Part shown: piece by piece, positions 5,945-27,972 of the stretch | How positions within the stretch are numbered: the first letter of the stretch is position 1 | How the letters are laid out: every line of letters starts with the position of its first letter | Source: a virus | Virus record (IMG/VR): IMGVR_UViG_3300035199_000441 | Location: 1 to 27,972 of that record | Length of the DNA stretch: 27,972 nt | Strand: one strand, 5' to 3' | The notes under the pieces: generated by a model | What the model was told of the DNA's origin: nothing | Seen by the model: the letters and a program-made list of their open reading frames with translations, nothing else | The model's database searches: none | Position numbers and translations under genes: made by a program

Positions 5945-6323
5945 TGTGCTCGACGCCGTGTTGAAGGTAATGCTCTCCACGCATTACGGCGCGCCTGGTT
6001 TCTTCGATCGACGAAAGCAGTTCGGAGTATTTCTTGTGCGCCCGTTCTGCTGACTCGTTAAGGTCCGCGCCAGCAGCCGGATTAATACCGTGGACGGTCA
6101 GGTCATGCGCGAGAAGCATTTGCTGCAGGTTCATGATGATGGACGTGTTGACATCCATTGATCGGGCCATCTGAATCTGGGCGCTCACAATGGTATCCAG
6201 GCGTTTGGCAAATTGGGACATCATCCATCGTAGGACGAGAATGAATGCGCCGCCGAGCACGGCGAACCCGCCGAAGTCCAACCACTTGCTCGGGTCAGTT
6301 CCTATCTGAGATAAAAGCTCCAT
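5922..6323 (-). CDS. Single-TM, coiled-coil small protein; holin-like topology
   Basis: This 133-aa protein has one hydrophobic segment at about residues 17-36 (FGGFAVLGGAFILVLRWMM), followed by a long charged helical tail. An N-terminal TM plus cytoplasmic coiled coil is seen in BhlA/UviB-type holin-like proteins and in some phage membrane accessory proteins, so a lysis or membrane role is possible but not shown. It is preceded by a rho-independent terminator that ends the upstream decoration-protein gene, so it probably has its own promoter or depends on read-through. No strong Shine-Dalgarno is visible before the ATG. Its end overlaps the convergent plus-strand gene by 23 nt. Confidence 0.7.
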   Translation of the reverse strand: MELLSQIGTDPSKWLDFGGFAVLGGAFILVLRWMMSQFAKRLDTIVSAQIQMARSMDVNTSIIMNLQQMLLAHDLTVHGINPAAGADLNESAERAHKKYSELLSSIEETRRAVMRGEHYLQHGVEHIKAAIYD

Positions 6324-6337
6324 GTTCTCATGTCCCG

Positions 6338-6379
6338 AAAAACTGGGCCCGCAGAGTTACACCCAAACTCTGCGGGCCC
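6338..6379 (-). terminator. Rho-independent terminator after the decoration-protein gene
   Basis: A perfect 14-bp stem (6345-6358 with 6366-6379, GGGCCCGCAGAGTT and its complement) encloses a 7-nt loop. On the minus strand it is followed by AG and then five T residues (6342-6338). It lies 30 nt beyond the stop of the 6409-7281 gene, so it closes the capsid transcription unit. Confidence 0.9.
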
Positions 6380-6408
6380 ATAAGCAAGAAGAATCCATTT
6401 CCGTGCGT

Positions 6409-7281
6409 CTACTGCTGCGTGGTCACGATGCGGGTGTCGCCGTGTCGAAGCTGCGCACACTTCCACCAGTCAATCGTGAGGGTCTCGGACGTGCCGGCAC
6501 CGTTGTTGATGCACGCGATGAAGCCCAGGCCGATGTCGGACGGCGTGGTAGTCGCCGCGTTGTCATCAGCCTGATCCGTCGTCGGCTGCGCCGCGCCGTC
6601 GATGTACCATGTGATCTTCCCCGAAGCGTCCATGTGGAAGCCGAGGTTGATGTAGGTATCGACCGCGAGCGTGCCCACGGCATCGTTCACCGTGTTCACG
6701 GTTCCGCCGTTGAGCATGGTGACGCAATCAATCCCGGTCGTGTCCGCTTCGAGCTGGTGGAATCCGACAAAGTTGGAATCGGTATCCAGCGTGCCGTCCG
6801 CCTCGATCGGCTTGGTTGCGGTCATCGTCTGCGCGTCGATCAGTCCGACGAGGATTCCCATCTCGAGCGTGGTGATCGTGCTCGGCTTGACGCGAGCCTC
6901 GAACCAGAGCGCGCCACTGCCGGACGAGAGCCGGTACGGCTGGTGGAGAGTCCGGATGCCCACGTTGTCGTTGTTGGTCGCGTTCGTGAGGACCAACTCA
7001 CCGCCACATGTGTTGGTGGTGGTGACGACCGTGCCGGGCGCGGCGTCTCCAAACGAGTGATACAGGATGTGCGCACGCTCGTCGTGCAGGTCGTCCGACG
7101 TGATCGTGCCGGAGATGCCCAGGTCGAGGAAATCGTCGAACTGGTAGTACCCGACGCCGGGGTCGAGCATCATTTCGAGCAACGGGCAATCGTTCCAAAA
7201 CGAACTTAGACCCGTTGCCTTGGTCGTTCCGCCCGGCGCTGTAGCTTGCTGATGAGAGGTAACAGGATATGGAATAGCCAT
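6409..7281 (-). CDS. Probable head decoration / structural beta-rich protein
   Basis: This 290-aa protein lies directly downstream of the major capsid gene (15-nt gap) and has a strong site, AAAGGAGGG, 5-6 nt before the ATG. It is rich in Thr, Gly, Asn and Asp, with alternating hydrophobic strands and a LamG/jelly-roll-like flavour (LWFEARVKPSTITTLEMGI, then INLGFHMDASGKITWYIDG). In tailed phages this position is usually a head decoration or head-completion protein; that assignment is inferred. Third codon positions are much more GC-rich than in the neighbouring capsid and portal genes, which creates a long antisense shadow ORF and suggests separate acquisition or translational selection. It ends at a strong terminator. 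Confidence 0.75.
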   Translation of the reverse strand: MAIPYPVTSHQQATAPGGTTKATGLSSFWNDCPLLEMMLDPGVGYYQFDDFLDLGISGTITSDDLHDERAHILYHSFGDAAPGTVVTTTNTCGGELVLTNATNNDNVGIRTLHQPYRLSSGSGALWFEARVKPSTITTLEMGILVGLIDAQTMTATKPIEADGTLDTDSNFVGFHQLEADTTGIDCVTMLNGGTVNTVNDAVGTLAVDTYINLGFHMDASGKITWYIDGAAQPTTDQADDNAATTTPSDIGLGFIACINNGAGTSETLTIDWWKCAQLRHGDTRIVTTQQ

Positions 7282-7296
7282 GCTATCCCTCCTTTC

Positions 7297-8340
7297 TTAT
7301 GCAGGGTTGGCAGTTGCCAACAGGAAGTTGCGGCGGCGGTCACGGCATTCCACCTGCACGGTGCAATCGATATGCGTTTCGCTCACGTTGTGTTGGCCGT
7401 GCTTAGCTGAAATTGTTGTTTCTCGCATCATGTCGCCAGCGAGGAACACGAACTTAAAGACGCCCCAGTTAATGCCGTAAATTGGACTTCCGGTTTTGGA
7501 ATCAAGTTGGGGAACCCAAACGACCGGGTTTTGCCGGAACATCGTTCGCCCGGCCATGCTGTTAAGGTCTGAACCAAGGTTGCTGTTCTGGCTTTCCAGA
7601 ATCTCTTCCATGGTGCTCAGGACGCTATACGGAACGTAGTATCCGAAGTCATTGCCGGTGTTGTACGACGAGACGTTAGACCCGAGAGGCGACACAAATC
7701 CGCACTTGGTCGATGCTTCTCGCATCTTCCTGATCGCATCTGTGCGACTGACTGAGGTGTATTGGTCCGTGTAATTCCGCCAACGCGGGTAGGTGGTGGT
7801 GTTTAATCCGGCAACATCACTGAATCCACTCGGCGTTCCGCCGTTGAATCCCGAGGTGGCCGAGTAAACGAGCCAGTAATCGACTCCGTACACCTGGTCG
7901 TCGGTAGCCGAAGTTGCGGGCTTTGACCAGAAATCGGTTTCGACCAATTCTGCCAAAGAGATCATTGCATCTGCGCGCCGGCCCTTGGCCAAATCAAGAA
8001 TACGCGCCGGGTCTCTGTTCATGAGCACTTCTCTAACGTCCAGGGCCCATCCCGAAGTCCAGTGAGACCACGGAATCGAGGCTCTTACGAATACATCCTG
8101 TACGTTCAGTGAGTCTGTGCTGAAAAGTCCGGTACGCCTTGCGGCACCAGAATGCTTCACCATTACGGAGAATTCAACCCCGTAACCACTGGTGATTTGG
8201 CGGCGTTTGCGCCGCATCAATTCGTTAAAGGCAACATGAGAAGCTGTGTCGGTCGCAATCTCTGTCCACTTGAATTTGCCTAGTTCTCTCTGAGTTAGTG
8301 CGACGAGATCGGCAATATCATCGCTGTTTAAGACGGCCAT
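7297..8340 (-). CDS. Major capsid protein (probable)
   Basis: This 347-aa protein follows the scaffold-like gene in a portal, scaffold, capsid order typical of podovirus-like head modules. The sequence has features common in HK97-fold phage capsids: a helical N-terminus rich in Lys/Arg (FNELMRRKRRQITSGYG), a long mixed alpha/beta body, and a C-terminal region (GDMMRETTISAKHGQHNVSE then TVQVECRDRR) like the P-domain/A-domain strands. No protease-type prohead domain is seen. The ribosome site is AGAAAGGGG, about 8 nt before the ATG. The call rests mainly on size, position and overall character; no catalytic motif exists to check. Confidence 0.85.
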   Translation of the reverse strand: MAVLNSDDIADLVALTQRELGKFKWTEIATDTASHVAFNELMRRKRRQITSGYGVEFSVMVKHSGAARRTGLFSTDSLNVQDVFVRASIPWSHWTSGWALDVREVLMNRDPARILDLAKGRRADAMISLAELVETDFWSKPATSATDDQVYGVDYWLVYSATSGFNGGTPSGFSDVAGLNTTTYPRWRNYTDQYTSVSRTDAIRKMREASTKCGFVSPLGSNVSSYNTGNDFGYYVPYSVLSTMEEILESQNSNLGSDLNSMAGRTMFRQNPVVWVPQLDSKTGSPIYGINWGVFKFVFLAGDMMRETTISAKHGQHNVSETHIDCTVQVECRDRRRNFLLATANPA

Positions 8341-8372
8341 CCGGCTGCCCCTTTCTTATATGAAAAGCGGGT

Positions 8373-9431
8373 CTACCCGTCGAAGTCTATTTCATCTTCA
8401 GAAACAGAGGTGGGGGCCCCAGTGCCATCAATCATCCCGCGATCTTTCATGAACTGCGCAATGCGGCTCAATGTGGCGCGCCTCCCGGTCGTATCCCTGG
8501 TGGCGCTCGTGGGACGGTGAAGCATTTGCCCCCTTCGGTCTTCGACTTGTTTCTCGACCTGCTTTCTCGCAATCTGCTGGTGAAAATCGTTAAAGGAAAT
8601 ACTTACGGCTCGTTCCATCAACGCCTTTTCGTCCAAGACTTGACCACGTTCGGCCAGCGCTATCCTCTGCACTTCCATTTCATCTCGAACGCGCTGGCGA
8701 TTCTTGAAATGGGCGCCCGTTGGTCGGAGGTCCGACGTTGGGCCTGCTCCGAACTTATGCTGCCATTCCTGGCTTTCCCCATCAAACATTTGGTCGAAGG
8801 TTTGGGCTTCTTCGTTCTGTCGTTTCAGCCTGTGTTCTTCAATCATCGAATTGATGGCGTCTTCCCGCTCACCGAGCGCAACCACGCTTGCGTTTATAGA
8901 TTCAACCATAGAATCCATCTGCGCAATTAGGTCTTCGTCGTATAGATCGGGGTCAAGCGTATTGGTCAGTTTTTGGGCCGGCGAGGCGTCGGGATTTGCC
9001 GACTCTTCCCGAACAGGAGCGTCCGGCTCCACGGTGTTCGGGGCATCGGAACGCTTGTCCAAAAGATCCAACATTTTGGAAAGCTGTTCCGGCGTGCCAA
9101 ATTCATTTGCGTCATCTGGCGAAAATCCGTAATCGGACGCTCTAAGAATGAGATCGTCTGAAATCTCATTCGGAGTAACCGCCTTGGGCTCGGGCTCATG
9201 GGGGCCCTCGGCGCTCTCAAGTTCGTCAATCTGTTCGTCGTCTGAACCCGCGCCATCGACTTCCGTGTCGGGCGCGGGCGCGGCATCTGCTTTTTGAACT
9301 TCGGGGCCCAAGTATGCATACTCGGCTTCCTCAGATGCCGGATCGAAACCTTCTGAGCCGTCCATGGCCTCGGCGTCGATTTCTTTTTTCATATCTTCTG
9401 GCGTTTCAGCCATCGTTGCTTGTTTTGGCAT
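8373..9431 (-). CDS. Scaffold-like acidic protein
   Basis: The 352-aa protein is strongly acidic and disordered in its first 150 residues (many Glu, Asp, Pro, Ala), followed by a predicted coiled coil (about 165-300, e.g. QIARKQVEKQVEDRR) and a basic, Arg-rich C-terminal helix region ending in an acidic tail. This composition and the place between portal and capsid genes match phage scaffolding proteins, which guide procapsid assembly and bind coat protein through a basic C-terminal helix. DNA at 8635-8679 within this gene reappears in permuted order at 21598-21638. The tRNA gene lies 39 nt upstream. Confidence 0.8.
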   Translation of the reverse strand: MPKQATMAETPEDMKKEIDAEAMDGSEGFDPASEEAEYAYLGPEVQKADAAPAPDTEVDGAGSDDEQIDELESAEGPHEPEPKAVTPNEISDDLILRASDYGFSPDDANEFGTPEQLSKMLDLLDKRSDAPNTVEPDAPVREESANPDASPAQKLTNTLDPDLYDEDLIAQMDSMVESINASVVALGEREDAINSMIEEHRLKRQNEEAQTFDQMFDGESQEWQHKFGAGPTSDLRPTGAHFKNRQRVRDEMEVQRIALAERGQVLDEKALMERAVSISFNDFHQQIARKQVEKQVEDRRGQMLHRPTSATRDTTGRRATLSRIAQFMKDRGMIDGTGAPTSVSEDEIDFDG

Positions 9432-9470
9432 ATCTGATTTACTTTTGATTGTCCGTTTGTCAGGAATACT

Positions 9471-9541
9471 AGCGGGAACAGGATTTGAACCTGCGACCTC
9501 CTGCTTATGAGGCAGGCGAGCTACCCCTGCTCTATCCCGCT
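9471..9541 (-). tRNA. tRNA-Met (anticodon CAU)
   Basis: The 71-nt cloverleaf is complete: acceptor AGCGGGA/TCCCGCT, D stem GAGC/GCTC, anticodon stem CCTGC/GCAGG with loop CTCATAA, 5-nt variable loop, T stem GCAGG/CCTGT with loop TTCAAAT. The 3' CCA is not encoded. CAU could be elongator Met, or Ile2 if the C is lysidine-modified. The C-G rich initiator pattern (three G-C pairs at the loop end of the anticodon stem) is absent. It sits inside the late head operon between small genes and the scaffold gene. Confidence 0.93.
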
Positions 9542-9590
9542 ATGGCAATCGTAGGGCCACCTATATGCGGTTACAACCCATATTGCGGCC

Positions 9591-9956
9591 CTAGTCTCCA
9601 TAGCAGCCATCCTTGTCGAACATTTGCCTGTGCTTCAAATATCTGCTCCTTGCCTTCCGATCACGAATCTCGCATATCCCGCATTCCTTGAAGTTTATTC
9701 CGGTAATGCCAGCCTTGCGGGCATCAGCCTGGGCCTCCTTGGCTTGTGAGGGATGAACGCCAAGAGCGTCACACTCCTTGGGCCAGTTGCCAGGAGTCGC
9801 ATCGAACCCACCCATTTCGGCCGCCTTGTTGCGCCGGGCCGGGCGTCCGTCGTCTAAAACGATCATTTTTGGGGGGGGGTCGCCCCTGGTCGTGAGGAAA
9901 ACGTCTACCAGTTCTCCTGGCGATCGGCAAAATATGGTCTCGTAGGTAAACAGCAT
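9591..9956 (-). CDS. Small conserved-looking phage protein between portal and scaffold
   Basis: I chose the ATG at 9956, giving 121 aa, because it starts 8 nt after the stop of the preceding small gene; a longer open frame reaches 10064 but would overlap that gene entirely. The C-terminal half (DALGVHPSQAKEAQADARKA, later RDRKARSRYLKH) resembles small phage proteins that describe a helix-rich 'GVHP(S/D)Q' segment and end in 'DGCYGD/GGYGD'. Two cysteines lie close together (KECGIC). Its function is unknown; position suggests a head-assembly or virion accessory role. Confidence 0.7.
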   Translation of the reverse strand: MLFTYETIFCRSPGELVDVFLTTRGDPPPKMIVLDDGRPARRNKAAEMGGFDATPGNWPKECDALGVHPSQAKEAQADARKAGITGINFKECGICEIRDRKARSRYLKHRQMFDKDGCYGD

Positions 9957-9963
9957 TACAGGA

Positions 9964-10215
9964 CTACCGTTTTCGGCCAGCGGTCTTTTTTTTCCGACCA
10001 ACGGCCACTTTTCCGGCTGCGCTAACAACGGGCCCCATGGGCCGACTTTTTCGGGAGGCGGCATCTGCCAGCATCTCCCTCGCCAAGATCGACCGGGATG
10101 CGGCTTCGCTGATGCCGCCCGGTGCCTTCTTTCTCACCCTCTTTTTCTTTGCGGCCTTCGCTGCAGCCATTCCTGATGCGGTATAGGGGTATTTTTTTGA
10201 TCCAACCCGTGGCAT
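9964..10215 (-). CDS. Small Lys/Arg-rich protein downstream of portal
   Basis: This 83-aa, very basic protein begins MPRVGSKKYPYTASGMAAAK, a pattern I recognise from short hypothetical proteins located next to portal genes in podovirus-like phages (G-K-K-x-P-Y-T followed by an Ala/Lys helix). The C-terminus is again Lys/Arg-rich. It starts 17 nt after the portal stop and ends 7 nt before the next gene, fitting an operon. Strong positive charge suggests nucleic-acid or acidic-scaffold contact, but this is inference. Confidence 0.75.
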   Translation of the reverse strand: MPRVGSKKYPYTASGMAAAKAAKKKRVRKKAPGGISEAASRSILAREMLADAASRKSRPMGPVVSAAGKVAVGRKKKTAGRKR

Positions 10216-10232
10216 GGATATCTCCTGTGTGT

Positions 10233-12035
10233 TTATTCCTCGCGCCCACTAAGCGGGCGATCGAGGGTCGCAGTCTGGTCTTTGTTTGCGCCGCCACCAA
10301 GAAGAACAGACTGAAGGATGTTGGATGTGCCCTCGCGTGATTTGCCAGGAATCGAACGCCGGATTTCAGTCCTGGTTGTGTTGGGTGACTTTCTCGGCAT
10401 TTCCTTGCCTGGCGACCCGCCGGCATTCTTTGCCGGAATTCCAGTCAGCACATCCCTTATCTCTGGTGTGTCTGAATATCTGGCAATCAGGTCAAACAGG
10501 GCGACCGGATCAATACCGACGCCCTGAGCCATAAATTGATCTTGCATGGGCAACACCAATTCCTTCAGGACTAGGTTGATCGTTTGTAGTTTCTCTCCTG
10601 GTGACCGATGCTGCATAGAGAACGGAGAGATGCTCAGGTTGTAATCCAGCCGGTCTCCCTCCCTCAACTCTGGACTAAACCTGATGGGAAGCTCCATCGA
10701 GGTTCCTTCTACTCGCTTCACCAGGGGAAGGTCTATCAGCGGGTCGTACCAGAGATAGTCGGCCAAATCCTCGACAACGCCCTGCACAAACGTGACCGTG
10801 TGATCCTGCATCTCAAGGATTCTCTGAGAGGCAGCGGACGAGAGCATTCGCTCCTGTCCGTATGTCTCTGCTTGCGGACTTAATCCGGCCAGGGAATCGA
10901 TATTGCCATTCAGGTAGACGAACAGGTCTCTCGTGTTCGAGAAAAACAGCATCTGCTCGCCGCTGATCCCTCCATATTTGACTTCTTTGAACGCTTCAGG
11001 GTTTTCCGTTCTCACCATTTCACCGCTTTTGGCGGTTCGTACCCGATCGGCGTCAGCTTCGTGTCCAGCCTGATAAAGGCCGACAGTCTTCTGCCTTTCT
11101 GCATCCCGCCCCATCTTGTTAAACAGCGTATTGGCGAGCAGGTGAAGGTCCATCATGATCGACACCGGAGCCAGGGGCATGACGTTGTTCGGAACCCTGT
11201 TGTAACCCAGGTGGTGATACGGCCCCCTTTCGGGGCCCTCCCAGTCAACTATGCTGACCGGCTTGGGAACGATGTTTCCCGAATCGTCTACCGCAAGAGA
11301 TACGACAAGCCTGTCATGAGGCAGCCAGAGATCCCATATCTCAACAATGTCTTTGAACTCTTCGTCGCCCCCGGTTTCGCCCCCAGTGGACAAGCCAGAT
11401 ACCCGCTCGTCCCCCTGCTCGTTGAAAGCGGTACGCATTGTCGGCCTGGTGCCACCAGATTTGAACACTGGCGACTCGTTGAAGTCTTCCCACCGCATCC
11501 GGAAGCGATTGCCGGCAAACGCAACCTCCTCGTACCGCTTTACCGTCATATCGTGGCACCAGTCGTCCAGATCCACCGGATCTGCAAACGGCTGGCCGGC
11601 GTTGTGTCGGAATCCCAGGCTCTCACCGAGAGACGGATCTGTAATGCCAACCTTCATGATGCCGAAAGAGAAAAGGGCGTCTACAACCACATCGTCTATA
11701 GATCGCCGCAGGTCTATTTCTTTAATCAGGTGGTTGATTGCCAGTGCGAAATCTGAGGAGAACGGCTTAAGTGAATTATCCAGCGCATTGACAACGACTT
11801 GTGGCGATCTGGCTGATAGCTGACGACGATACGTCGATACCGCAAGCTCCATTAGGTTGATGGGAACCCGATCCTCTGCCCCGGAGTGGTCTTCGGTGTA
11901 ATGGAACCCAACAAACTGCTTTATCGCCTCAAGCCTGTGGGACCGAAACGCCTCCTGCTTTTTACGAGACCACTGAACGGCGTTCACAAGCCGAGACATT
12001 TGACGTTCGTTTTTTGGATTGAATCTCTTAGCCAT
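10233..12035 (-). CDS. Portal protein
   Basis: The 600-aa protein has the usual length and position for a podovirus-type head-tail connector: immediately downstream of the large terminase and upstream of scaffold and capsid. The N-terminus (KKQEAFRSHRLEAIKQFVG, then RVPINLMELAVSTYRRQL) matches the helical start of many portal proteins. The central part has a long helix and crown-like region, and the C-terminal 80 residues are Pro/Ser/Arg-rich. A GGAG site lies 6 nt before the ATG. Portals form the dodecameric DNA channel in the capsid vertex. A 44-bp stretch, 10444-10487, encoding residues around IARYSDTPEIRDVLT, has an inverted near-copy at 22619-22662. Confidence 0.88.
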   Translation of the reverse strand: MAKRFNPKNERQMSRLVNAVQWSRKKQEAFRSHRLEAIKQFVGFHYTEDHSGAEDRVPINLMELAVSTYRRQLSARSPQVVVNALDNSLKPFSSDFALAINHLIKEIDLRRSIDDVVVDALFSFGIMKVGITDPSLGESLGFRHNAGQPFADPVDLDDWCHDMTVKRYEEVAFAGNRFRMRWEDFNESPVFKSGGTRPTMRTAFNEQGDERVSGLSTGGETGGDEEFKDIVEIWDLWLPHDRLVVSLAVDDSGNIVPKPVSIVDWEGPERGPYHHLGYNRVPNNVMPLAPVSIMMDLHLLANTLFNKMGRDAERQKTVGLYQAGHEADADRVRTAKSGEMVRTENPEAFKEVKYGGISGEQMLFFSNTRDLFVYLNGNIDSLAGLSPQAETYGQERMLSSAASQRILEMQDHTVTFVQGVVEDLADYLWYDPLIDLPLVKRVEGTSMELPIRFSPELREGDRLDYNLSISPFSMQHRSPGEKLQTINLVLKELVLPMQDQFMAQGVGIDPVALFDLIARYSDTPEIRDVLTGIPAKNAGGSPGKEMPRKSPNTTRTEIRRSIPGKSREGTSNILQSVLLGGGANKDQTATLDRPLSGREE

Positions 12036-12103
12036 CCTTGGCTCCAGAGGTATGTGTAGTCTATACCATTCTTACGCCCGCGCTTACGGGTAACGACAGG
12101 CAT
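11984..12103 (-). CDS. Possible small ORF overlapping portal start
   Basis: The 81-nt gap between terminase and portal contains an ATG at 12103 opening a 39-codon frame that runs 52 nt into the portal gene in another frame. Its first part (MPVVTRKRGRKNGIDYTYLW) is basic, then aromatic, and looks protein-like. There is no clear Shine-Dalgarno sequence, and the long overlap argues against it. It could equally be non-coding leader for the portal gene. Confidence 0.25.
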   Translation of the reverse strand: MPVVTRKRGRKNGIDYTYLWSQGWLRDSIQKTNVKCLGL

Positions 12104-12116
12104 GTTCGCGGTGCCA

Positions 12117-13976
12117 TCACCACATCGTAGTCTCCAACTGCTCCTCATCCCAAATCTTCCGCCTCCAGGCAAAACATCCCACAGGAATGGTTACCGGGCC
12201 TTCGCCTGGGGGGGCCGCCTTTTCCTTGGCGATTTTATAGCAGAGGGCGCCCGCTGTAGGCCGGTCTCCGTGCTGTTCGCCGGCCCCGGATGGGTCGTGG
12301 GAGTTTGACTCTCGGGTATGCAATATCCACCTTGTATTGGTATAGATGAAGTGCCTGCATTCCTCCAACTGGTGCTTAGACCTTACCTGGAACGAATCTT
12401 CGTGAAGGGCCGCCTTGAAGTCTCCGAAAAGGCGCTGTTTTTCATCCTTGGTCGGCCACCACCCCGGAATGTTGCTTTTCCTGCGACGAACCAGACTTCT
12501 CTCATCTCGTCGGTGGTAGAAATTCCTAAAGCCCAGGTCGAGTATTCTGGCCTCAAAGTTTCGTCCCGGCCCCGGAGCCTCCCAAATCATGTGGGCCGGA
12601 TCTCCGCTGGCGTCGTGGAACCACATGGCCAAAGCCACCGCCAATTCAGCCAGTTCCTCTGGACGAATGTGGGGATCGGTGTATTCGGCAACCTGCTCCT
12701 GGGTTGTAATGTCAGATACGACTAGGCAGGAGTTGGATGCCCCCGTTCCCGACGAGATATCGGCACCTATCGCATACCTGTGATCGTAGGTGGGCCTTCC
12801 CTGTTGAAGGGGGCACCACAGATCGAGCCGGCCCTTTGCCATGGAGGAAAACCGTGTAGGCTGAATTGGGTCAACGGTGTATTCCAGCGCTCCGGTATAC
12901 CGTGGAGGCTCGACCATCGATCCAACGCACTTGTCGATTAGGCTTGGCTCGAAGTAGGTTGACGCAGAGCCGATAAAGTCCATGTCAAGCTCTTGGGCGA
13001 TATCACTGCTGTGGCGTGCCCTGGCACACTCGGCGTCGTACCAGGGACTTCTCGTTTTGCCATCACGGATAAACTTGTATCCGTCCGGCGGTGGGCTTTC
13101 GGGGTTGAGCACCCTTACGTCTGCCCGTCCGGCCACATAGAGGCCCCGGTTTTTGTTGGGGTGTATTGGCCACCAGAGCCTCATTTGCTGGAAATTCTCA
13201 GAACTGTCACCCCTGGAAATGTCGTAGGCGACGTTCCCAGAGCCTTCCGGCGTAAACAAGCAGATGCGGCAGTTGGTTACATCCCGCATTCCACGGAAGA
13301 TGGTCGCCTGGTTATCCATCTTCGAGAACTCATCCTTGAACACAGCAAGCCGACGATCAGAGACCCCAGAAAACTCTGCTGTTGTTTCGCCATCGATAAC
13401 ACTGTTGTTGTCGATGTTCAGAGAATGCAGTTCTTTCTGGTGCGTAGACGGCAGAAGCCATCCTGGCTGGTGCTGATGAAGGAATGCGAACTTGGTAAAC
13501 AGGGCCTTTGGATCTCCGGGGTTGTAAACGAGGCTCTTTTTTCGGCTCATCCACAAGAACGATGCGAACGAGTGGAAGTGCCACGTCCATTCCATTGCCG
13601 TAATGCACATCCATGAGGCCCCCATGTCGCGGGACTTCACGACGACCAAGTCGCGCTTACCTATGCAGTCGCATATTTCCAAGATTGCATCGTCTTGGAA
13701 AGGAAACGTAATAAACGGCAGAACCGCCCTAGTTCTCGGCTCAAAGATCCAGCAAAACGTGTTTATGTAGAACAGAACGTCTCTGGCGCACATGACCCAC
13801 AAGTCTTGCTGCATTTCCCGATCGCCAGCAGCGCGGTTGATTATCTTTTTGCGCCACAACAGGTTGGCGGACTGTTCTTTCGGAACAAGGTTGTAGTATG
13901 GACAGCGATCCGAGTGGTCTTCTGTCGGCGTGTACGGCAGAGCCTCGGCTCCTGGCGACTGCGGCCAAGAAATCAC
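12117..13976 (-). CDS. terL: Terminase large subunit
   Basis: The 619-aa protein carries the expected motifs of the packaging ATPase-nuclease. These are a Walker A variant KSRDMGAS at residues 114-121, Walker B AVFKDEF at 211-217, a coupling motif near FTPEGSGN (241-248), and RuvC-like nuclease acidic residues in YAIGADISSG (D406), MIWEAPGPG (E466) and ALHEDS (about 526-527). It drives genome translocation into the procapsid and cuts concatemers. The start is GTG, in a GTGA overlap with the upstream gene's TGA, giving translational coupling. All key motifs look intact. Confidence 0.95.
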   Translation of the reverse strand: MISWPQSPGAEALPYTPTEDHSDRCPYYNLVPKEQSANLLWRKKIINRAAGDREMQQDLWVMCARDVLFYINTFCWIFEPRTRAVLPFITFPFQDDAILEICDCIGKRDLVVVKSRDMGASWMCITAMEWTWHFHSFASFLWMSRKKSLVYNPGDPKALFTKFAFLHQHQPGWLLPSTHQKELHSLNIDNNSVIDGETTAEFSGVSDRRLAVFKDEFSKMDNQATIFRGMRDVTNCRICLFTPEGSGNVAYDISRGDSSENFQQMRLWWPIHPNKNRGLYVAGRADVRVLNPESPPPDGYKFIRDGKTRSPWYDAECARARHSSDIAQELDMDFIGSASTYFEPSLIDKCVGSMVEPPRYTGALEYTVDPIQPTRFSSMAKGRLDLWCPLQQGRPTYDHRYAIGADISSGTGASNSCLVVSDITTQEQVAEYTDPHIRPEELAELAVALAMWFHDASGDPAHMIWEAPGPGRNFEARILDLGFRNFYHRRDERSLVRRRKSNIPGWWPTKDEKQRLFGDFKAALHEDSFQVRSKHQLEECRHFIYTNTRWILHTRESNSHDPSGAGEQHGDRPTAGALCYKIAKEKAAPPGEGPVTIPVGCFAWRRKIWDEEQLETTMW

Positions 13977-14581
13977 TCCCCAGACTCCGATGACATCTTC
14001 TCAAGTTCTTCGATCGCGCGAATAACTTGATCTCCCTTGTCGGAAAACCGGAGTTGCGAATCCAAGTCGGCGCGGCTTGGAAAGATGCGTGTAGACAGGT
14101 CTTTCCAAAAGCAACTTTCGTTTGAAGGTGTGCGTTGTGCCCACCTGAGCATGCCATACGCCATCGGGCTCGGCGCATCCTTGGCCGACACTTCTTTCAG
14201 CACCACGTTGTCAGCGACCCACTTGACGGCAACATGCGATGGGCAGTCTCGATCTCCGAACACCTCTTTGTCCACCCGGTCGCCAAACAGGACAAGGCCG
14301 TCTTCCGGTCGCACCTTCCCTTTGGGGAGCGGCGGAAGATTCTCTGGCGACACGGGCGGAAACGATTCGGCCGCCGCCACCCAAGCCTCGCCAGCGGGAA
14401 TACCAAGTCCTATAAGCATTTCCCGCTTTTCATTGAAGGCGCCTAGGTTTCCTTCCCGAGTTAGCCGCTCGCGCGTGACCTTTTTGGGTTGCCTTGCGTA
14501 TTCGGGGTAGCTCGAATAGTCGCCGCCTTGACTTGTATCGGAGGCGCGCTTCCCTGGGATTTTATTATTGTTGTCGTCCAT
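13973..14581 (-). CDS. terS: Probable terminase small subunit
   Basis: This 202-aa, hydrophilic protein lies directly before terL, overlapping it by 4 nt, which is the standard place for the DNA-recognition subunit. The first 40 residues are disordered and basic. A helical region with EKREMLIGLGIPAGEAWVAA could be a helix-turn-helix-like segment, and the C-terminus (DKGDQVIRAIEELEKMSSES) is a predicted helix for oligomerisation. The family itself is not recognised, so the assignment is by context. Upstream is a 66-bp divergent gap shared with a plus-strand gene. Confidence 0.65.
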   Translation of the reverse strand: MDDNNNKIPGKRASDTSQGGDYSSYPEYARQPKKVTRERLTREGNLGAFNEKREMLIGLGIPAGEAWVAAAESFPPVSPENLPPLPKGKVRPEDGLVLFGDRVDKEVFGDRDCPSHVAVKWVADNVVLKEVSAKDAPSPMAYGMLRWAQRTPSNESCFWKDLSTRIFPSRADLDSQLRFSDKGDQVIRAIEELEKMSSESGE

Positions 14582-14647
14582 GACTTTTCTCTATCTGCCA
14601 AGACCCACGGTCGTCTCATTATCGAAACATTGCGTAGGATAATATCC

Positions 14648-14908
14648 ATGCATAACGACTCGACCTATCACGTCAAATTCAAGAAAAGGCTTTGGCTAAT
14701 AGATACGGGCCGGACGCTGTCGCGCACAGATGGGTTGAATCAAAACGAAGGAAGCAGCTTCAGCAAGCTCCTTACGATTTGCCAGCATCGATTCGGACCT
14801 GGATGGATTAAGCGTGATGGAGATTCGTTGACTTGGAAGCTGAACCCCAAAGCAGATGATGGCGCCAAGGCCAAGAGAAGGGCCCAACGAAAAAAGCCGC
14901 CCACCTGA
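14648..14908 (+). CDS. Small basic protein on the opposite strand (possible moron)
   Basis: The ATG at 14648 opens an 86-aa frame that fills the 400-bp gap between the terminase operon and the lipoprotein gene, divergent from the former and convergent with the latter. The sequence is protein-like: KFKKRLWLIDTGRTLSRTDG, then GPGWIKRDGDSLTWKLN, ending in a Lys/Arg-rich tail. A weak site (TAGGATAA) precedes it. It could be a small nucleic-acid-binding or regulatory protein. The plus-strand orientation inside a minus-strand late block suggests independent acquisition. A longer in-frame extension upstream to 14489 overlaps the terminase gene and is unlikely. Confidence 0.5.
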   Translation: MHNDSTYHVKFKKRLWLIDTGRTLSRTDGLNQNEGSSFSKLLTICQHRFGPGWIKRDGDSLTWKLNPKADDGAKAKRRAQRKKPPT

Positions 14909-14921
14909 GCCTGGCGACAAA

Positions 14922-14956
14922 AGAGCACCCCCCTGCCAAGACAGAACCAGGGGGGT
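14922..14956 (-). terminator. Possible terminator after the lipoprotein gene
   Basis: A 9-bp perfect stem (ACCCCCCTG at 14927-14935 with CAGGGGGGT at 14948-14956, 12-nt loop) is followed on the minus strand by GCTCTTTTG, a short T run. It sits just past the stop of the 14979-15539 gene and also past the end of the convergent plus-strand gene. The loop is long and the T run is short, so activity is uncertain. Confidence 0.5.
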
Positions 14957-14978
14957 ACGAGGGGGGGAACATTATCAA

Positions 14979-15550: not shown

Positions 15551-16276
15551 CTATTCCGACAGGTAGGACTGAGCGAATTGACGCGCCCGCTTTGCCAGCA
15601 CCTTGTCGTTGCTTGGGTCTGCAATGACCGATCCTGCTTCCCAGATCATTACGTTTGGGATCAGTCCCGTCGTTGCCTTGCGGATCGTTTTCGCCATCGC
15701 CTTGGTAGCCTTGCCCCCCTCGATGTCGAATGAAACCTTGTTCGAGAACGACACCGTTATGACCTGGGGGACGCCGGGGAATGCTTGCGCAAGCATGTCG
15801 CAGCCGTGCGATACCTCGTCAACGCCTACGGTCCAACTCTCGTCCTCTTTATGACGCCACTTACAGTCCCATCCATGATACGGAAGCGAATCGATTTCGA
15901 GCAGCTTCTCGTGCTCAGCGCCTTTGTGGTAATGAAAGAACGCATAGAGTGATGTCCCATATTCCTGTGCGACTTGCTCGAACGACTCAAGATGATCTCG
16001 CCAATACGGAATACCTTCTCGCTCTACGTCGTTCCACTTCACCCACTCAAGCGATAGGTGCTGGACGAACGGGAACGGCATCGGGAGAGTTTCGAGATGA
16101 GTCCGTAGCTTTCGATCCCAGTCCGGGTCAATCGTGCATTCATCAGTTTCGCCATCTCGATCAAGGACGGCTCCCTTATTGATCGTGAGCATCGGCTTGT
16201 AGTACCGATGTAAGATTCGCTCGAACTGAGAACCAGGGATCAGGTTTCCCAGGATCTTGTCGTCGTAGTAAAGCAT
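15551..16276 (-). CDS. Unknown 241-aa protein, possible TIM-barrel glycosidase-like fold
   Basis: A strong AGGAGG site lies 6 nt before the ATG and the stop abuts the lipoprotein gene, so the two form one unit. The sequence has strand-helix alternation and aromatic/acidic clusters: PFVQHLSLEWVKWND, SLYAFFHYHKG, then PNVMIWEAGSV near the C-terminus. These look like strand ends of a (beta/alpha)8 glycoside-hydrolase-like protein, but no family signature is clear. Location next to a lipoprotein with spanin-like features makes a cell-wall or envelope role conceivable. I do not recognise it with confidence. Confidence 0.7.
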   Translation of the reverse strand: MLYYDDKILGNLIPGSQFERILHRYYKPMLTINKGAVLDRDGETDECTIDPDWDRKLRTHLETLPMPFPFVQHLSLEWVKWNDVEREGIPYWRDHLESFEQVAQEYGTSLYAFFHYHKGAEHEKLLEIDSLPYHGWDCKWRHKEDESWTVGVDEVSHGCDMLAQAFPGVPQVITVSFSNKVSFDIEGGKATKAMAKTIRKATTGLIPNVMIWEAGSVIADPSNDKVLAKRARQFAQSYLSE

Positions 16277-17815: not shown

Positions 17816-17836
17816 CTACTCCGGGGCGCGGTGTCC

Positions 17837-18334
17837 ATGAACGGAAGCCGCAAACAGAAGAGATCGAAACTAACGGTCGCCAGGGTGATCACCATCACCT
17901 TGTTCCTGTTGGCCGTGGCTGCTGCCTCTATGGTCTTTGCCGGCCCGGCGCAGCGCAGCAGCACCAAGTCTCAAACCAAAACGACCATCTGCTACGGTGA
18001 TTTGGACGACTCCGGATCGATCACCGCAGCAGACCTCCTCCTCCTACTTGCTGCATGGGGACCATGCCCAGGCCCATACGTTGCAGAAGTCCCCGGCGTC
18101 TACCTTTGCCCAGAAGACCTGACAGGGCCGGGGGGGCTCGTAGACGGATGGGTCGGTGTTCCAGACCTGCTGCTGATCCTGGGGGCCTGGGACGGCTGTG
18201 CCTGCTTCTCTGACGTGCAGGAATTCTGGACAGCGTCTTGGCCGTTCGTCCCTCATACCCAAGACCACACGTTGCCATGTACCCCCGATGACATTGATCA
18301 TTGGTCCCAAGACTGCGCCCAAGACCCCAAGTAG
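17837..18334 (+). CDS. Secreted dockerin/EF-hand-like protein of planctomycete type
   Basis: Start ATG at 17837 (165 aa); a GTG six bases upstream is possible. A signal peptide is clear: basic KQKRSK, hydrophobic TITLFLLAVAAASM, cleavage likely after VFA. The mature part has GDLDDSGSITAADLLLLL followed by AAWGPC, a 12-residue EF-hand-type loop (D1, D3, S5, S7, D12) as in dockerin type I. A second degenerate copy (DLTGPGGLVDGWVGVPDLLL then GAWDGC) follows. Paired loops ending in AAWG-C are, from memory, common in Planctomycetes secreted proteins. It should be exported, bind calcium and may interact with cell-surface partners. It looks host-derived, perhaps a lysogenic-conversion gene. No strong ribosome site is seen. 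Confidence 0.75.
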   Translation: MNGSRKQKRSKLTVARVITITLFLLAVAAASMVFAGPAQRSSTKSQTKTTICYGDLDDSGSITAADLLLLLAAWGPCPGPYVAEVPGVYLCPEDLTGPGGLVDGWVGVPDLLLILGAWDGCACFSDVQEFWTASWPFVPHTQDHTLPCTPDDIDHWSQDCAQDPK

Positions 18335-18357
18335 CTTGAAAACATGATGGCAATAGA

Positions 18358-18389
18358 AAAGGCCGAGGGGTGCAGCGCCCTTGGCCTTT
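18358..18389. terminator. Bidirectional terminator hairpin
   Basis: A 12-bp stem (AAAGGCCGAGGG at 18358-18369 with CCCTTGGCCTTT at 18378-18389, one G-T pair, 8-nt loop) lies between the convergent dockerin-like gene and the minus-strand gene at 18394. A-rich and T-rich flanks on each side (TTTT on the minus strand) would let it work in both directions. Confidence 0.85.
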
Positions 18390-18393
18390 CGGT

Positions 18394-18831
18394 TCACACT
18401 TTACGTCGGTCTTCTTCTTTGCCGCTGATGCACGCGATCGCCATGCGGAAGCGAGTGCCGCGTCCCTGAATGCCGCCGCAGTCGTAGCCGAACCGATCAG
18501 CCACCATCTCTGCGAATTCCCAGCCGTTGAACCCCAGAACGAAGTCGTCTGAGAGCCAGCCCCCTAATCCACGAGCCTCGATCGCGTTGAGTGTATCGAC
18601 GCGATCGTTCAAGACCATCGACGACAACTTGCCGTCAATGGACAATGTGAAGTAGGGCCCCGCCTCGTCGCGGTGGATCTTCACATAGATGAACTGCGGT
18701 GCTGTCTCAAGGAACTTGTAGCTCACGATGGAATGTCCATCCATGCCATCGTGAATCCACTTCGCCAATTCCTCTCTTTGCTCGCTCGTAATGAAATGCC
18801 AAATCGGGCAATCTGTGGTAGCTTTGCTCAT
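18394..18831 (-). CDS. Unknown 145-aa protein
   Basis: A good ribosome site (AGAAAGGAAAGG) precedes the ATG at 18831. The protein looks globular and soluble: ITSEQREELAKWIHDGMDGH, then KFLETAPQFIYVKIHRDEAG, LSIDGKLSSMVLNDRVDTLN and a C-terminal GRGTRFRMAIACIS. No motif or family is recognised. It is alone, bounded downstream by the bidirectional terminator and upstream by the repeat-containing region next to the integrase gene, so it may have its own promoter there. Confidence 0.65.
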   Translation of the reverse strand: MSKATTDCPIWHFITSEQREELAKWIHDGMDGHSIVSYKFLETAPQFIYVKIHRDEAGPYFTLSIDGKLSSMVLNDRVDTLNAIEARGLGGWLSDDFVLGFNGWEFAEMVADRFGYDCGGIQGRGTRFRMAIACISGKEEDRRKV

Positions 18832-18930
18832 GGCAACCTTTCCTTTCTGTTTTGGTTGTCAAAGAACTGGAGTCGGTGCGATGCTGCACTGACTCCATTT
18901 TACCATGAGCGTTTTTTCGACCTCTCGCGG

Positions 18931-19069
18931 CGACACCTAACATCGGTCGTTCTGCGCGTCTTTTGACGAGCGGCTTGGTTGCGCCCGTCGTTGCGCCTTG
19001 TTAGGCGTACCAAAATATTTTTGCTTTTCCGGTTCTCGCGCCCTCGGCCCCGATACCTAACATCGCGCG
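18931..19069. repeat. Att-like repeats beside the integrase gene
   Basis: A 19-bp repeat (CGAyACCTAACATCGnnCG) occurs at 18931-18949 and 19051-19069, exactly 120 bp apart. The second copy ends one base before the integrase stop codon. An inverted core (TGTTAGGC) lies between them at 18999-19006, preceded by two direct GTTGCGCC copies at 18978-18985 and 18990-18997. Position next to a tyrosine recombinase suggests recombinase-binding arm or core sites (attP). The pair ACCTAAC (18935-18941) and GTTAGGC (19000-19006) also fits the RYYYAAC/GTTRRRY boxes of an integron attC site, 72 bp long. Neither identity is proven. Confidence 0.5.
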
Positions 19070-21212: not shown

Positions 21213-21227
21213 CGACCCGATTCTCCC

Positions 21228-21279
21228 CTCCTTAGTTCGGTTGAAGCCTGCGCCAGCCCGCTAAGACGGGCGCGGGGTA
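21228..21279 (-). repeat. Leader hairpin repeat, copy 1
   Basis: On the minus strand this reads as a GC-rich hairpin (CCCG/CGGG core, flanked by GCGCC/GGCGC-like bases), then CAGGCTTCAACCGAACTAAG and GGAG, placing it 15-65 nt before the methyltransferase start. The 23 nt CTCCTTAG...AAGCCTG part is identical in copy 2 (21534) and differs by two bases in copy 3 (23055). Confidence 0.7.
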
Positions 21280-21525: not shown

Positions 21526-21533
21526 GGTCTGTT

Positions 21534-21584
21534 CTCCTTAGTTCGGTTGAAGCCTGATCCGGCCCGCTAGGACGGGCGCGGGGT
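21534..21584 (-). repeat. Leader hairpin repeat, copy 2
   Basis: Same element as at 21228: CCCG/CGGG hairpin followed by the conserved CAGGCTTCAACCGAACTAAG-GAG, ending 8 nt before the start at 21525. The hairpin arms differ from copy 1 but still pair. Confidence 0.7.
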
Positions 21585-21588
21585 GGTG

Positions 21589-22023
21589 TCATTTGGGCAG
21601 CGCTATCCTCTGCGCTTCCATTAAGACTTGACCACGTTTCAGGTAGGCGACCGAGTACGGCCCGCAGCAATCTAAGCCGCCAGACTCGTCGAATATGTTG
21701 CCGCGCTTGTGCTTGGCTGGTGCCTTCCACGTTGCAGGCTTGAAAATATCGCCTGTAGCTAGTTCGACGAAGCCGTACGCACTGCGGCTGTTGGAGTCGC
21801 CTCGCATCTGCCGTACTATGCGAGCGTACCGCTTGCCCTTCATGCTGGTGAAGTCCAAGCCGTTGTGGGCGTAGAAGGCGTACGCCGCGTACCGGCCTCC
21901 AAACGCCTCGTGCATCCACGCCGCGATCTTCTCCGTGAGTCGTTGCAAGAAGTCGGACAAGTCTGCATCGGTCACGGTTCGCGCCTTCGAGCAGGGGGTC
22001 AGGTTAGGGGTTCCGTGTTTCAT
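21589..22023 (-). CDS. Phage-type conserved protein (KPATWKAPAK-RGNIF family) with odd C-terminus
   Basis: The 144-aa protein has an AAGGAG site 8 nt before its ATG. The core AYGFVELATGDIFKPATWKA followed by PAKHKRGNIFD resembles a widespread phage hypothetical family in which a 'FV.k.tGdi.Ka.sWkaPAk.aRGnif' segment is followed by a short 'GPYG.aYL' ending. Here 14 extra residues (RGQVLMEAQRIALPK) follow YLK. Their DNA (21598-21638) is made of two pieces of the scaffold gene in swapped order, so the C-terminus looks altered by insertion. Function of the family is unknown to me. Confidence 0.8.
   Translation of the reverse strand: MKHGTPNLTPCSKARTVTDADLSDFLQRLTEKIAAWMHEAFGGRYAAYAFYAHNGLDFTSMKGKRYARIVRQMRGDSNSRSAYGFVELATGDIFKPATWKAPAKHKRGNIFDESGGLDCCGPYSVAYLKRGQVLMEAQRIALPK
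21598..21638. repeat. Permuted copy of scaffold-gene fragment
   Basis: Bases 21598-21622 match 8655-8679 at 24 of 25 positions, and 21623-21638 match 8635-8650 at all 16. The two pieces are adjacent here but in the reverse order to the scaffold gene, where they are separated by 4 nt. Orientation relative to transcription is the same (both minus-strand coding). Confidence 0.85.
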
Positions 22024-22616: not shown

Positions 22617-23048
22617 TCATTGCCAGATAGGCAGACACACCAGAGATAAGGGATGTGCTGACAAGCTACCGGCCGCGTAGTGCCACGTCTCTACCGCGTC
22701 GATGGCGTCCGCGAGTCGATCGTAGTCGTCCAGTGTGATTCGTCCCGCGTCGATGTCCGTGCGCTGGCCGTCGGCTTCGTCGTCTTCGTCAATCCAGTCC
22801 AAGTCCGAAGCCGCGCGCCGCATATCTTCGATGCGCTCCTCGTGCGTCGAGCCGTCCGCACCATCCGCGTACGCGGACGACGACTGAAGCGCGTCCAGTA
22901 GCGTCCAGCCGACGGTCCCGGCGCGCGCTTTGGCTTCCGCGTGCGATCGCGCGTTAGCCGCGGCTTGGATGGCCGGGACGAAGTGGCTCCGCGCCATCCG
23001 GTAGATGGAACGTCCGCACGGGTCGATGATGGTCTGTAGCGTCGTCAT
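22617..23048 (-). CDS. Unknown early protein with C-terminus replaced by antisense portal DNA
   Basis: The ORF of 143 aa begins with an AAGGAG site 8 nt before the ATG. The body is helical and acidic: IDPCGRSIYRMARSHFVPA, AANARSHAEAKARAGTVGW, RIEDMRRAASDLDWIDEDDE. The last 14 residues (SAHPLSLVCLPIWQ) are encoded by 22619-22662, the reverse complement of a portal-gene segment. Without roughly 43-44 nt of this insert, another frame could continue (…DDSHPEVMPPTTTGSTVKGDA) to an ATGA overlap with the next gene start at 22556. This suggests that an insertion truncated the original reading frame. The original function is unknown. Confidence 0.65.
   Translation of the reverse strand: MTTLQTIIDPCGRSIYRMARSHFVPAIQAAANARSHAEAKARAGTVGWTLLDALQSSSAYADGADGSTHEERIEDMRRAASDLDWIDEDDEADGQRTDIDAGRITLDDYDRLADAIDAVETWHYAAGSLSAHPLSLVCLPIWQ
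22619..22662. repeat. Inverted near-copy of portal-gene fragment
   Basis: The reverse complement of these 44 bases matches 10444-10487 at 42 positions: 31 consecutive identical bases, two mismatches, then 11 identical bases. The portal gene is transcribed from the minus strand, as is the gene here, so this transcript would carry 44 nt antisense to portal mRNA. Confidence 0.9.
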
Positions 23049-23054
23049 GGTGTT

Positions 23055-23104
23055 CTCCTTAGTTCGGTCGAAGCCAGCGCCAACCCGTTAGGGCTGGCGC
23101 GGGT
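23055..23104 (-). repeat. Leader hairpin repeat, copy 3
   Basis: GCGCCA/TGGCGC stem plus CCC/GGG with a GTTA loop, followed by GGCTTCGACCGAACTAAGGAG on the minus strand, just upstream of the 23048 start. It is the same element as at 21228 and 21534 with changed but still pairing stem bases. A related hairpin without the conserved leader occurs at 25774-25816. Confidence 0.7.
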
Positions 23105-23808: not shown

Positions 23809-23827
23809 TGTACCATGTTTGTGGGGA
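23809..23827. repeat. 19-bp inverted repeat, left arm
   Basis: TGTACCATGTTTGTGGGGA here is the exact reverse complement of 23980-23998 inside the DUF932 coding region (codons for SPQTWY). The arms are 152 nt apart and enclose the ribosome binding site (AAGGAG, 23870-23875) and the start codon at 23881. Confidence 0.85.
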
Positions 23828-23880: not shown

Positions 23881-24852
23881 ATGACCTATGCACCCGACCT
23901 GACGCAAAAGACCACCCCGCTGGAGGCCCTGAGCAAGTATGGGCTAGACTGGACCGTCGATACCGCGCCGCTCCTCTGGTCCCCACAAACATGGTACAAA
24001 CCGGGCGCCGACGCCGTCCCCGTTCCGTCTGGCCACCGCGCGGTATATCGCGTTGTGGACGGCGAGTTCCTGGCGCCCGTGTCGGCCAAGTATCGCCCGA
24101 TCCAAAACCGCGAAATCGCCGCCGCTATCGAGTCGGCCCTACCGGGCGAGCCAACGATCGTGGCCGGCGGGGAGTATCGCGGCGGCAAGCGCGTATGGCT
24201 TCAGGCCGACCTGGGGGAAATGCAGATCGGCGGCCTGGACCCGGTGCGCCGGTTCGCCCTTTTCTATTCCGATCACGACGGCGGCGGGGCGCTCACGGTC
24301 GCCCCGGCCACGTTCCGTATATGGTGCTTAAATCAATTGAACGCGGCCACCGATCAGCACGAGCGCGTCAAAATCGTGCACCGGGGCAACCTGGACACCA
24401 GCAAAGTTGCCGACACGATCCGGGCCGCCCTGACTGGCACCGCCAGGTGGCTTGAGGAGTTCGAGCAGGCCGCTACAGCCCTTGCAGAGGACAAGGCCAT
24501 TGACGGCACCTGGCTGGGGAAGTTCTTCCAGCGGGCCTACCTGGCCGCCTGCACGCCCGCTACGCGCGATCTGATCTGCGCCCCACCATCCCACGACGAG
24601 TCGGTCAGGGCCAGGCAGATTAAAGCCGCTGGCAAGGCCGCCAAGCGGGTGGCCGCGATGGCCGAGCGCTACGAGTCCTGCGATGACGGCGAGTTACCAT
24701 CGGCCCTACAGCATTCACGCTGGCACGCCTTCAATGCGGCAACCGAAGTCATCGACCATGGGTCAAGGTTTAACGCCGAATCCGTCCAGCTAGGCCGGGC
24801 CTCTAAGGCGAAGTCGGATATCTTCGCCCTGGCCGGGTCGCTGGAAATGTGA
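23881..24852 (+). CDS. DUF932 / phage-plasmid-like protein (TIGR03299 type)
   Basis: A strong AAGGAG site precedes the ATG at 23881 by 5-7 nt; 323 aa. The sequence follows the DUF932 pattern: N-terminal LDWTVDTAPL and YRVVDGEFLAPVSAKYRPIQN, then central GEYRGGKRVWLQADLGEM, HDGGGALTVAPATFRIWCLNQLN, and a C-terminal helical part with AMAERYESC and HSRWHAFNAATEVIDHG. DUF932 proteins are common in phages and plasmids and are thought to act in DNA replication or anti-restriction contexts, but the activity is not established. It is the only plus-strand gene in this early block, divergent from the clamp-like gene, ends at a terminator, and has a 19-bp inverted repeat around its start. Confidence 0.88.
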   Translation: MTYAPDLTQKTTPLEALSKYGLDWTVDTAPLLWSPQTWYKPGADAVPVPSGHRAVYRVVDGEFLAPVSAKYRPIQNREIAAAIESALPGEPTIVAGGEYRGGKRVWLQADLGEMQIGGLDPVRRFALFYSDHDGGGALTVAPATFRIWCLNQLNAATDQHERVKIVHRGNLDTSKVADTIRAALTGTARWLEEFEQAATALAEDKAIDGTWLGKFFQRAYLAACTPATRDLICAPPSHDESVRARQIKAAGKAAKRVAAMAERYESCDDGELPSALQHSRWHAFNAATEVIDHGSRFNAESVQLGRASKAKSDIFALAGSLEM

Positions 24853-25758: not shown

Positions 25759-25773
25759 GGGGGGTGCTCCATT

Positions 25774-25816
25774 GTCGAGGCAATGCCAGCGCCAACCCGT
25801 CAAGGCTGGCGCCAGC
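25774..25816. repeat. Hairpin related to the leader repeats
   Basis: GCGCCAACCCGTCAAGGCTGGCGC forms a GCGCCA/TGGCGC stem and is nearly identical to the hairpin of copy 3 at 23055-23104 but lacks the conserved AACTAAGGAG leader. It lies between the 25839 and 25758 genes. Confidence 0.7.
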
Positions 25817-26948: not shown

Positions 26949-26976
26949 AAAAGTGTGACCCATGGGTCACACTTTT
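26949..26976. promoter_or_regulatory. 28-bp perfect palindrome, likely operator
   Basis: AAAAGTGTGACCCA and its exact reverse complement lie end to end with no spacer. This is the classic form of a site for a dimeric repressor or activator. It lies about 440 bp downstream (minus direction) of the HExxH gene and about 870 bp upstream of the 26078 gene. No repressor gene is identified in the window. Confidence 0.6.
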
Positions 26977-27416: not shown

Positions 27417-27710
27417 CTATTCTTCGTCTTTGATAAACCCGCCCTTGACCAGGCATTCGACGATGACGCGCTCGGTATCCAGCACAAAGATTTCAGACAG
27501 GTTCCAGTCGGACAGGTGCAGGACTTCGTGGATGAGTGCGCCGACCGTTTCCTTTTCGGTCATGCCCCTACGAATACGGATCTCTGGCTGTGGGTAGTGC
27601 AGCGGGTCTTGCACGTCAGCGGGGGATTTCATATCCCGCCGACCCATTCGCACCGTGCAGACCAGGGGACGTTCTTCTGGCCCGACCCTCAGTGTAAACG
27701 GCGTGTTCAT
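27417..27710 (-). CDS. Small HExxH metallopeptidase-like phage protein
   Basis: This 97-aa protein contains ALIHEVLHLSDW with H61, E62 and H65 of an HExxH zinc motif, and a further Glu (E72 or E80) that could complete the site. The N-terminal half has beta character (PFTLRVGPEERPLVCTVRMG, then PEIRIRRGMTEKET). Small HExxH proteins of this design (about 90-130 aa) are frequent phage hypotheticals; substrates are unknown. Start and upstream stop overlap as ATGA, so it is coupled to the preceding phosphoesterase-like gene. Confidence 0.75.
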   Translation of the reverse strand: MNTPFTLRVGPEERPLVCTVRMGRRDMKSPADVQDPLHYPQPEIRIRRGMTEKETVGALIHEVLHLSDWNLSEIFVLDTERVIVECLVKGGFIKDEE

Positions 27711-27972
27711 TCTCTAGCCCTTGGCACCTTGGCTCGTTCGATGTTGAACTCAATACCCTCTTGGTGCCAGTAGAACTTGAGCCAATACGCGCCGATCGGT
27801 CGGGGAGCGCGGCCCTTCTCGATGTGATAGCCAGTCCCGTGTTGGTACTCATGTTTGTAGGTTGGCACTTTCACGGCAACGATTTCGCGGACCTGCTCTC
27901 GGCCCTTCTTGTCAAGGTTGAGTGCGGCAACGTCCATCGTCCATGACTGATGAACATGCCCCGACACCATGA
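27707..27972 (-). CDS. C-terminal part of a calcineurin-like phosphoesterase-type protein (partial)
   Basis: The frame is open to the right window edge, so only about 87 C-terminal residues are seen. It begins with MVSGHVHQSWTMDV; a GHxH motif with small residues before it is the last metal-binding block of calcineurin-like metallophosphoesterases. The rest (VKVPTYKHEYQHGTGYHIE, then AYWLKFYWHQEG) fits the C-terminal region of phage members that act on RNA or DNA ends or nucleotides. The exact substrate cannot be told. The stop overlaps the next gene by an ATGA. Confidence 0.6.
   Translation of the reverse strand, partial: MVSGHVHQSWTMDVAALNLDKKGREQVREIVAVKVPTYKHEYQHGTGYHIEKGRAPRPIGAYWLKFYWHQEGIEFNIERAKVPRARE

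Follow-up and report, generated by a model that had tools for sequence, protein, structure and literature searches.

The locus and its late-gene segments

The window analysed here, a stretch of 27,972 nt, is a complete, linear IMG/VR record (G000) in which two early genes end in short segments matching late genes of the same genome. The features concerned are:

8373-9431, minus strand: scaffold-like late gene (352 aa) between the portal and capsid-like genes; homologues in 12 of 26 records
8635-8679, minus: donor unit of 45 nt within the scaffold gene, native there by alignment of scaffold homologues, encoding MEVQRIALAERGQVL
10233-12035, minus: portal (head-tail connector) gene; weak PHROG_332 connector match, homologues in 14 of 15 records
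10444-10487: part of the portal gene from which the 44-nt segment comes; its minus strand codes IARYSDTPEIRDVLT
21528-21579, minus: hairpin and Shine-Dalgarno leader cassette adjoining the scaffold-derived insertion, common to contig G028
21589-22023, minus: early gene 1 (144 aa), DUF7717 / PHROG 5014 family (Pfam PF24835, 6e-12; PHROG_5014 profile)
21592-21638, minus: scaffold-derived 47-nt segment in rotated order, adjoining the stop codon TGA (21589-21591)
21592-21622, minus: piece A of the scaffold copy, 28/31 to 8649-8679
21623-21638, minus: piece B of the scaffold copy, 16/16 to 8635-8650
22617-23048, minus: early gene 2 (143 aa), its last ~15 residues from the portal-derived segment
22619-22662, minus: portal-derived 44-nt segment (42/44), antisense to portal, with the stop codon at its end
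23809-23827, minus: possible fourth, shorter case (tentative), an exact 19-nt inverted copy of 23980-23998 (E = 0.016)

The name scaffold is taken solely from gene position and from similarity inside this group of records; a search with this gene in phages gave no useful match.

An earlier note had reported that two pieces at the end of early gene 1 match the scaffold gene in swapped order, 21598-21622 against 8655-8679 (one mismatch over 25 nt) and 21623-21638 against 8635-8650 (exact). Our comparison bears this out, including the shared strand and the 4 nt that separate the pieces in the donor, and shows that the match is in fact longer, covering 47 nt. This whole segment is a rotation of one 45-nt scaffold unit: on the coding strand of 8635-8679 it starts at offset 29 and runs for a full turn plus 2 letters, giving a 2-nt overlap, with 44 of 47 positions identical and only 16 of 47 in the second-best rotation. 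The scaffold reading frame is retained in both pieces. Taken alone, piece A (21592-21622 against 8649-8679) has a BLAST E value of 1e-4, and given piece A the chance of an adjoining exact 16-mer from within ~10 nt of its donor is ~1e-8. The portal-derived companion that the earlier note had placed at 22619 likewise stands, as an inverted match of 22619-22662 to 10444-10487 (E = 2e-13). In a Markov simulation on the combined 44.7-kb sequence exact matches of at least 17 nt arose ~0.25 times per genome; this simulation, the BLAST E values and the adjacency odds rule out chance matching as the origin of the scaffold and portal copies.

Genomes compared

The sister contig G001 (IMG/VR record 3300034980_000470, 31,675 nt) is 99.3% identical to the window over 251-14972 and extends ~17 kb further on the other side; it contains both donor sequences, identical to those of the window, and the early region of the window lies beyond its reach. 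Positions 1-250 of the window have no match to G001, though the rest of the overlap is 99.3% identical. A search with the leader motif that recurs before early genes led to a further contig, G028 (3300034980_000210, 32,850 nt), which carries the same metagenome number as G001 (3300034980). Leader cassettes precede early genes at 21222-21273, 21528-21579, 23049-23100 and partly 25761-25812 in the window, and at 31540-31619, 32225-32303 and 32652-32744 in G028; they recall the start-associated sequences reported for cluster K mycobacteriophages (PMC3203893).

Three stretches of the window recur in G028, 18352-19068 (97%), 27433-27972 (91%) and 15570-15673 (98%); G028 also contains the left end of G001. 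As the left end of G001 and the right end of the window both occur in G028, the two ends are probably near neighbours, and the whole genome probably measures ~45 kb. The structural genes of G028 are unrelated to those of the window, with a portal of PHROG 2662/12 type and a different terminase; on gene content, the window phage and G028 are mosaics that have early and lysis modules in common and structural genes not. Further mosaic relatives sought via shared genes were not found, a terminase search of genome contigs aimed at the host gave no result, and a search of a phage DNA collection returned nothing useful. The window also encodes a small secreted-looking protein with repeats at 17831-18334, which has no Pfam match and whose repeats resemble dockerin-type proteins of Planctomycetes, a possible hint at the host. 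A perfect 28-nt palindrome, AAAAGTGTGACCCATGGGTCACACTTTT, lies at 26949-26976 and is perhaps an operator.

Direction of copying

Positions 9-110 of the 110-position PHROG_5014 profile align to residues 31-129 of the early gene 1 protein, so that the family profile is complete at residue 129 and 15 more residues, 130-144 (RGQVLMEAQRIALPK), are surplus to the family. DUF7717 homologues finish at a conserved Y-L-R/K that corresponds to residue 129. Those of Escherichia phage RB16, Alishewanella phage Slicko01 and viral contig L072 have their C-termini at or within a few residues of this point and lack the 15 extra residues; a C-terminus shared by family members, which the earlier note had named as grounds for giving up an insertion, is thus not seen in these three. 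On the late side, the scaffold donor stretch aligns gap-free to scaffold homologues, the motif NRxxVxEEMExLRxGY included, and the portal donor position aligns with 11 portal homologues in which a K/R-Y-S/A-N/D pattern is common; judged from this alignment, the 44 nt is native to the portal gene. Since the donor stretches align natively and the DUF7717 family ends at residue 129, the late genes are the donors. Copying in the reverse direction, from early to late genes, is ruled out by the scaffold, portal and other late-gene homologues. A search of 25 terminase relatives, many of them partial, turned up no DUF7717 gene, and early gene 1 therefore looks newly gained in the window phage. For early gene 2, the phages, viral contigs and genome contigs searched yielded no homologue.

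A third case is present in G028, where 48 nt from positions 90-137 recur inverted at 28962-29009 (46/48, E = 2e-15). The donor comprises the end of a late gene and the spacer downstream of it; its coding part is conserved with the window homologue (KRARQFAQ-YL), and hence the late gene is the donor here too. A RusA gene lies upstream of the copy, and an early DNA methyltransferase gene has its start codon 2 nt past the end of the copy. The 19-nt sequence at 23980-23998 of the window is the 5' part of a DUF932 gene, and its inverted copy at 23809-23827, upstream of that gene, is perhaps a short local template switch.

Common features and rarity of the copies

A comparison of the three copies, from two phages, showed that: 1) they are alike in size and identity (44/47, 42/44 and 46/48), each with a native late gene as donor. 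2) All lie no more than 2 nt from a start or stop codon. The earlier note had named early-gene 3' ends as the sites, which holds for the two window cases; the third precedes a start codon, so the sites are gene edges generally. 3) Orientation is mixed, with one direct and two inverted copies, sense and antisense both. 4) Two of the three lie ~1 kb apart in one genome, with their scaffold and portal donors ~12 kb away. 5) A direct repeat abutting the insertion measures 0 nt at two sites and at most 3 nt at early gene 1; target-site duplication on both ends, as left by transposase- or Cas1-like insertion, is not seen. 6) Microhomology at the joint is 2-3 nt at early gene 1 (AA or TGA) and ~0-1 nt at the other two. 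The word joint follows from the gene-edge position, because empty sites for the copies were sought in the collections and none was found.

Self-comparison of genomes (at least 30 nt, at least 90% identity, at least 500 nt apart) yields two copies in the window and, leader cassettes aside, one in G028. No comparable copy from coding sequence occurs in 16 related records and 6 reference phages, a modest set of ~0.86 Mb. The repeats that these 22 genomes do contain are repeats at genome ends, T7 promoter repeats, a pair at an annotated diversity-generating retroelement (DGR) in phage Magia, repeats located between annotated genes in Flyfo podovirus, and, in G022, an intergenic repeat of a simple motif; the 50-nt duplicate of G022, considered as a gene copy, is this last repeat instead. 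Such patches seem rare in comparable phages and not a general phage habit, and we found no description of short late-to-early copies in phages in the open-access literature searched.

Origin of the copies

We think it somewhat probable that the copies are short templated patches of the phages' own late-gene DNA, left as filler at early-gene joints formed by illegitimate recombination. Under such a mechanism, 44-48 nt of late-gene DNA would have been copied or captured where a DNA end had broken or stalled, by end joining or template switching, presumably with a polymerase or recombinase taking part, and the patch would have remained where the early gene meets its neighbour, a likely module joint. 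Patches of this kind may have been retained because they are almost harmless when inserted at a start or stop codon. The filler at 21592-21638 would have added 15 residues to the DUF7717 protein, with the ORF ending at the next TGA. Filler is favoured because no reverse transcriptase was found (PF00078 has no match in the window, G001 or G028), no repeat abuts the insertion at two sites, orientation is mixed and the copies sit at gene edges; the mixed orientation is more in keeping with an accident than with a design for regulation. The Erf-type annealing protein encoded in G001, the seemingly recent gain of early gene 1, the mosaics of shared modules and in-frame tandem repeats also speak for it. 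Against it count the narrow size range of 44-48 nt for random patches and the location of two of the three cases merely 1 kb apart in one genome; as a general explanation, it is further weakened by the related and reference phages devoid of such copies.

The rotated order of the scaffold copy would arise from a donor molecule in which 45 nt had been duplicated in tandem and in frame before copying, or from a backward jump of 45 nt along the donor during copying. The earlier note had held that a linear copy cannot give this order, which is not supported: if the donor contained a tandem duplication of 45 nt (15 codons), a linear copy of 47 nt spanning its junction would reproduce the observed order exactly, with both pieces in the scaffold frame. 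A circle is thus unneeded, and the origin of the piece from a ~45-nt circle of DNA or RNA opened at another point, with which its full-turn rotation and 2-nt overlap agree, is quite improbable, for a duplicated donor copied linearly predicts the same sequence, and neither the portal copy nor the G028 copy is anything but a simple linear segment. We infer the duplicated scaffold donor from the arrangement of the copy; tandem repeats with spacings of 30, 45, 60 and 111 nt occur elsewhere in G001 and G028. In G028 at 31731-31820 (L126 11731-11760 and 11791-11820), an early gene (PHROG 1915) contains a 30-nt exact repeat, in frame, 60 nt apart.

The earlier note had also suggested a process that inserts late-gene fragments into early genes; the scaffold and portal insertions and the third case uphold insertion as such, and its description as dedicated or new does not follow. 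That a dedicated or host-driven process repeatedly captures ~45-nt phage fragments and inserts them at gene borders in this host's phages appears unlikely: the near-equal size, identity and border position of three cases in phages with different structural genes, and the lack of such copies in the 0.86 Mb of comparison genomes, accord with it, but there are three cases only, with no consistent target-site duplication and no reverse transcriptase, donor order is rotated in just one, and random insertions likewise survive at gene edges. The related proposal, that a recurring process in this host's phages cuts out or copies late-gene pieces of 44-48 nt, fixes them at early start or stop codons and yields new protein tails and leaders, strikes us as rather improbable, and is retained mainly because the three copies agree closely in size and divergence. 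We give little credence to selection of the copies for function, whereby early protein 1 would carry a scaffold-like peptide tag and the portal piece would act as an antisense or regulatory RNA. The scaffold frame is indeed preserved in both scaffold pieces, and the portal copy is the complement of portal mRNA; yet one copy, that of scaffold, is sense, that of portal is antisense and so outside any portal frame, and that in G028 is intergenic, so that no single function fits. Antisense regulation as a general rule was rejected on the same distribution, with one of the three copies sense and one intergenic, and a regulatory repeat family on finding just two copies of each sequence and the order rotated. 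An assembly or library artefact from chimeric reads is conceivable in that every contig is metagenomic and G001 and G028 share a metagenome number; it is very unlikely, given that two contigs agree fully in the donors and the copies differ from these at 2-3 positions, that the reading frames are open to a stop, and that the G028 case is separate.

If the copies are filler, patches whose donor, size and divergence are all known would be direct physical evidence for illegitimate joints in natural phages, and filler at gene edges would offer early proteins a route to new C-terminal tails.

Comparison with known systems

Like the present copies, the template and variable repeats of DGRs, such as the pair in phage Magia, are short intragenomic copies with some mismatches. 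DGRs differ in having a reverse transcriptase, and the present copies have too few mismatches for adenine-specific change; a DGR or other reverse transcription was rejected because no reverse transcriptase was found, and adenine-biased mutation, judged by eye, on far too few changes. The mosaic exchange promoted by Rad52-like proteins of the Erf/Redbeta type also joins modules; on diverged DNA, Erf of phage D3 has a recombination efficiency close to that of lambda Red (PMC3945230). An Erf-type protein is present in G001. Such exchange is guided by homology of equivalent genes, whereas here non-homologous late scraps lie at unrelated early genes; the Erf-type protein of G001 is at most a candidate for a part in making the copies. 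Quasipalindrome template-switch mutation (PMC7202029) likewise involves inverted copying and is relevant to the 19-nt case at 23809-23827; it acts within one hairpin-forming site, in contrast to the main copies, which lie ~12 kb from their donors.

In filler DNA the copied piece can be rearranged. Templated insertions of this kind accompany polymerase-theta end joining and T-DNA joints in animals and plants, where short patches are copied from elsewhere at an illegitimate joint, as proposed for our case; polymerase theta is eukaryotic, whereas the present case is a phage with donors ~12 kb away (PMC4490562, PMC4912351, PMC8395108). The identifiable donor elsewhere that marks filler DNA is found for the scaffold, portal and G028 late-gene copies alike, and all of these donors are native.
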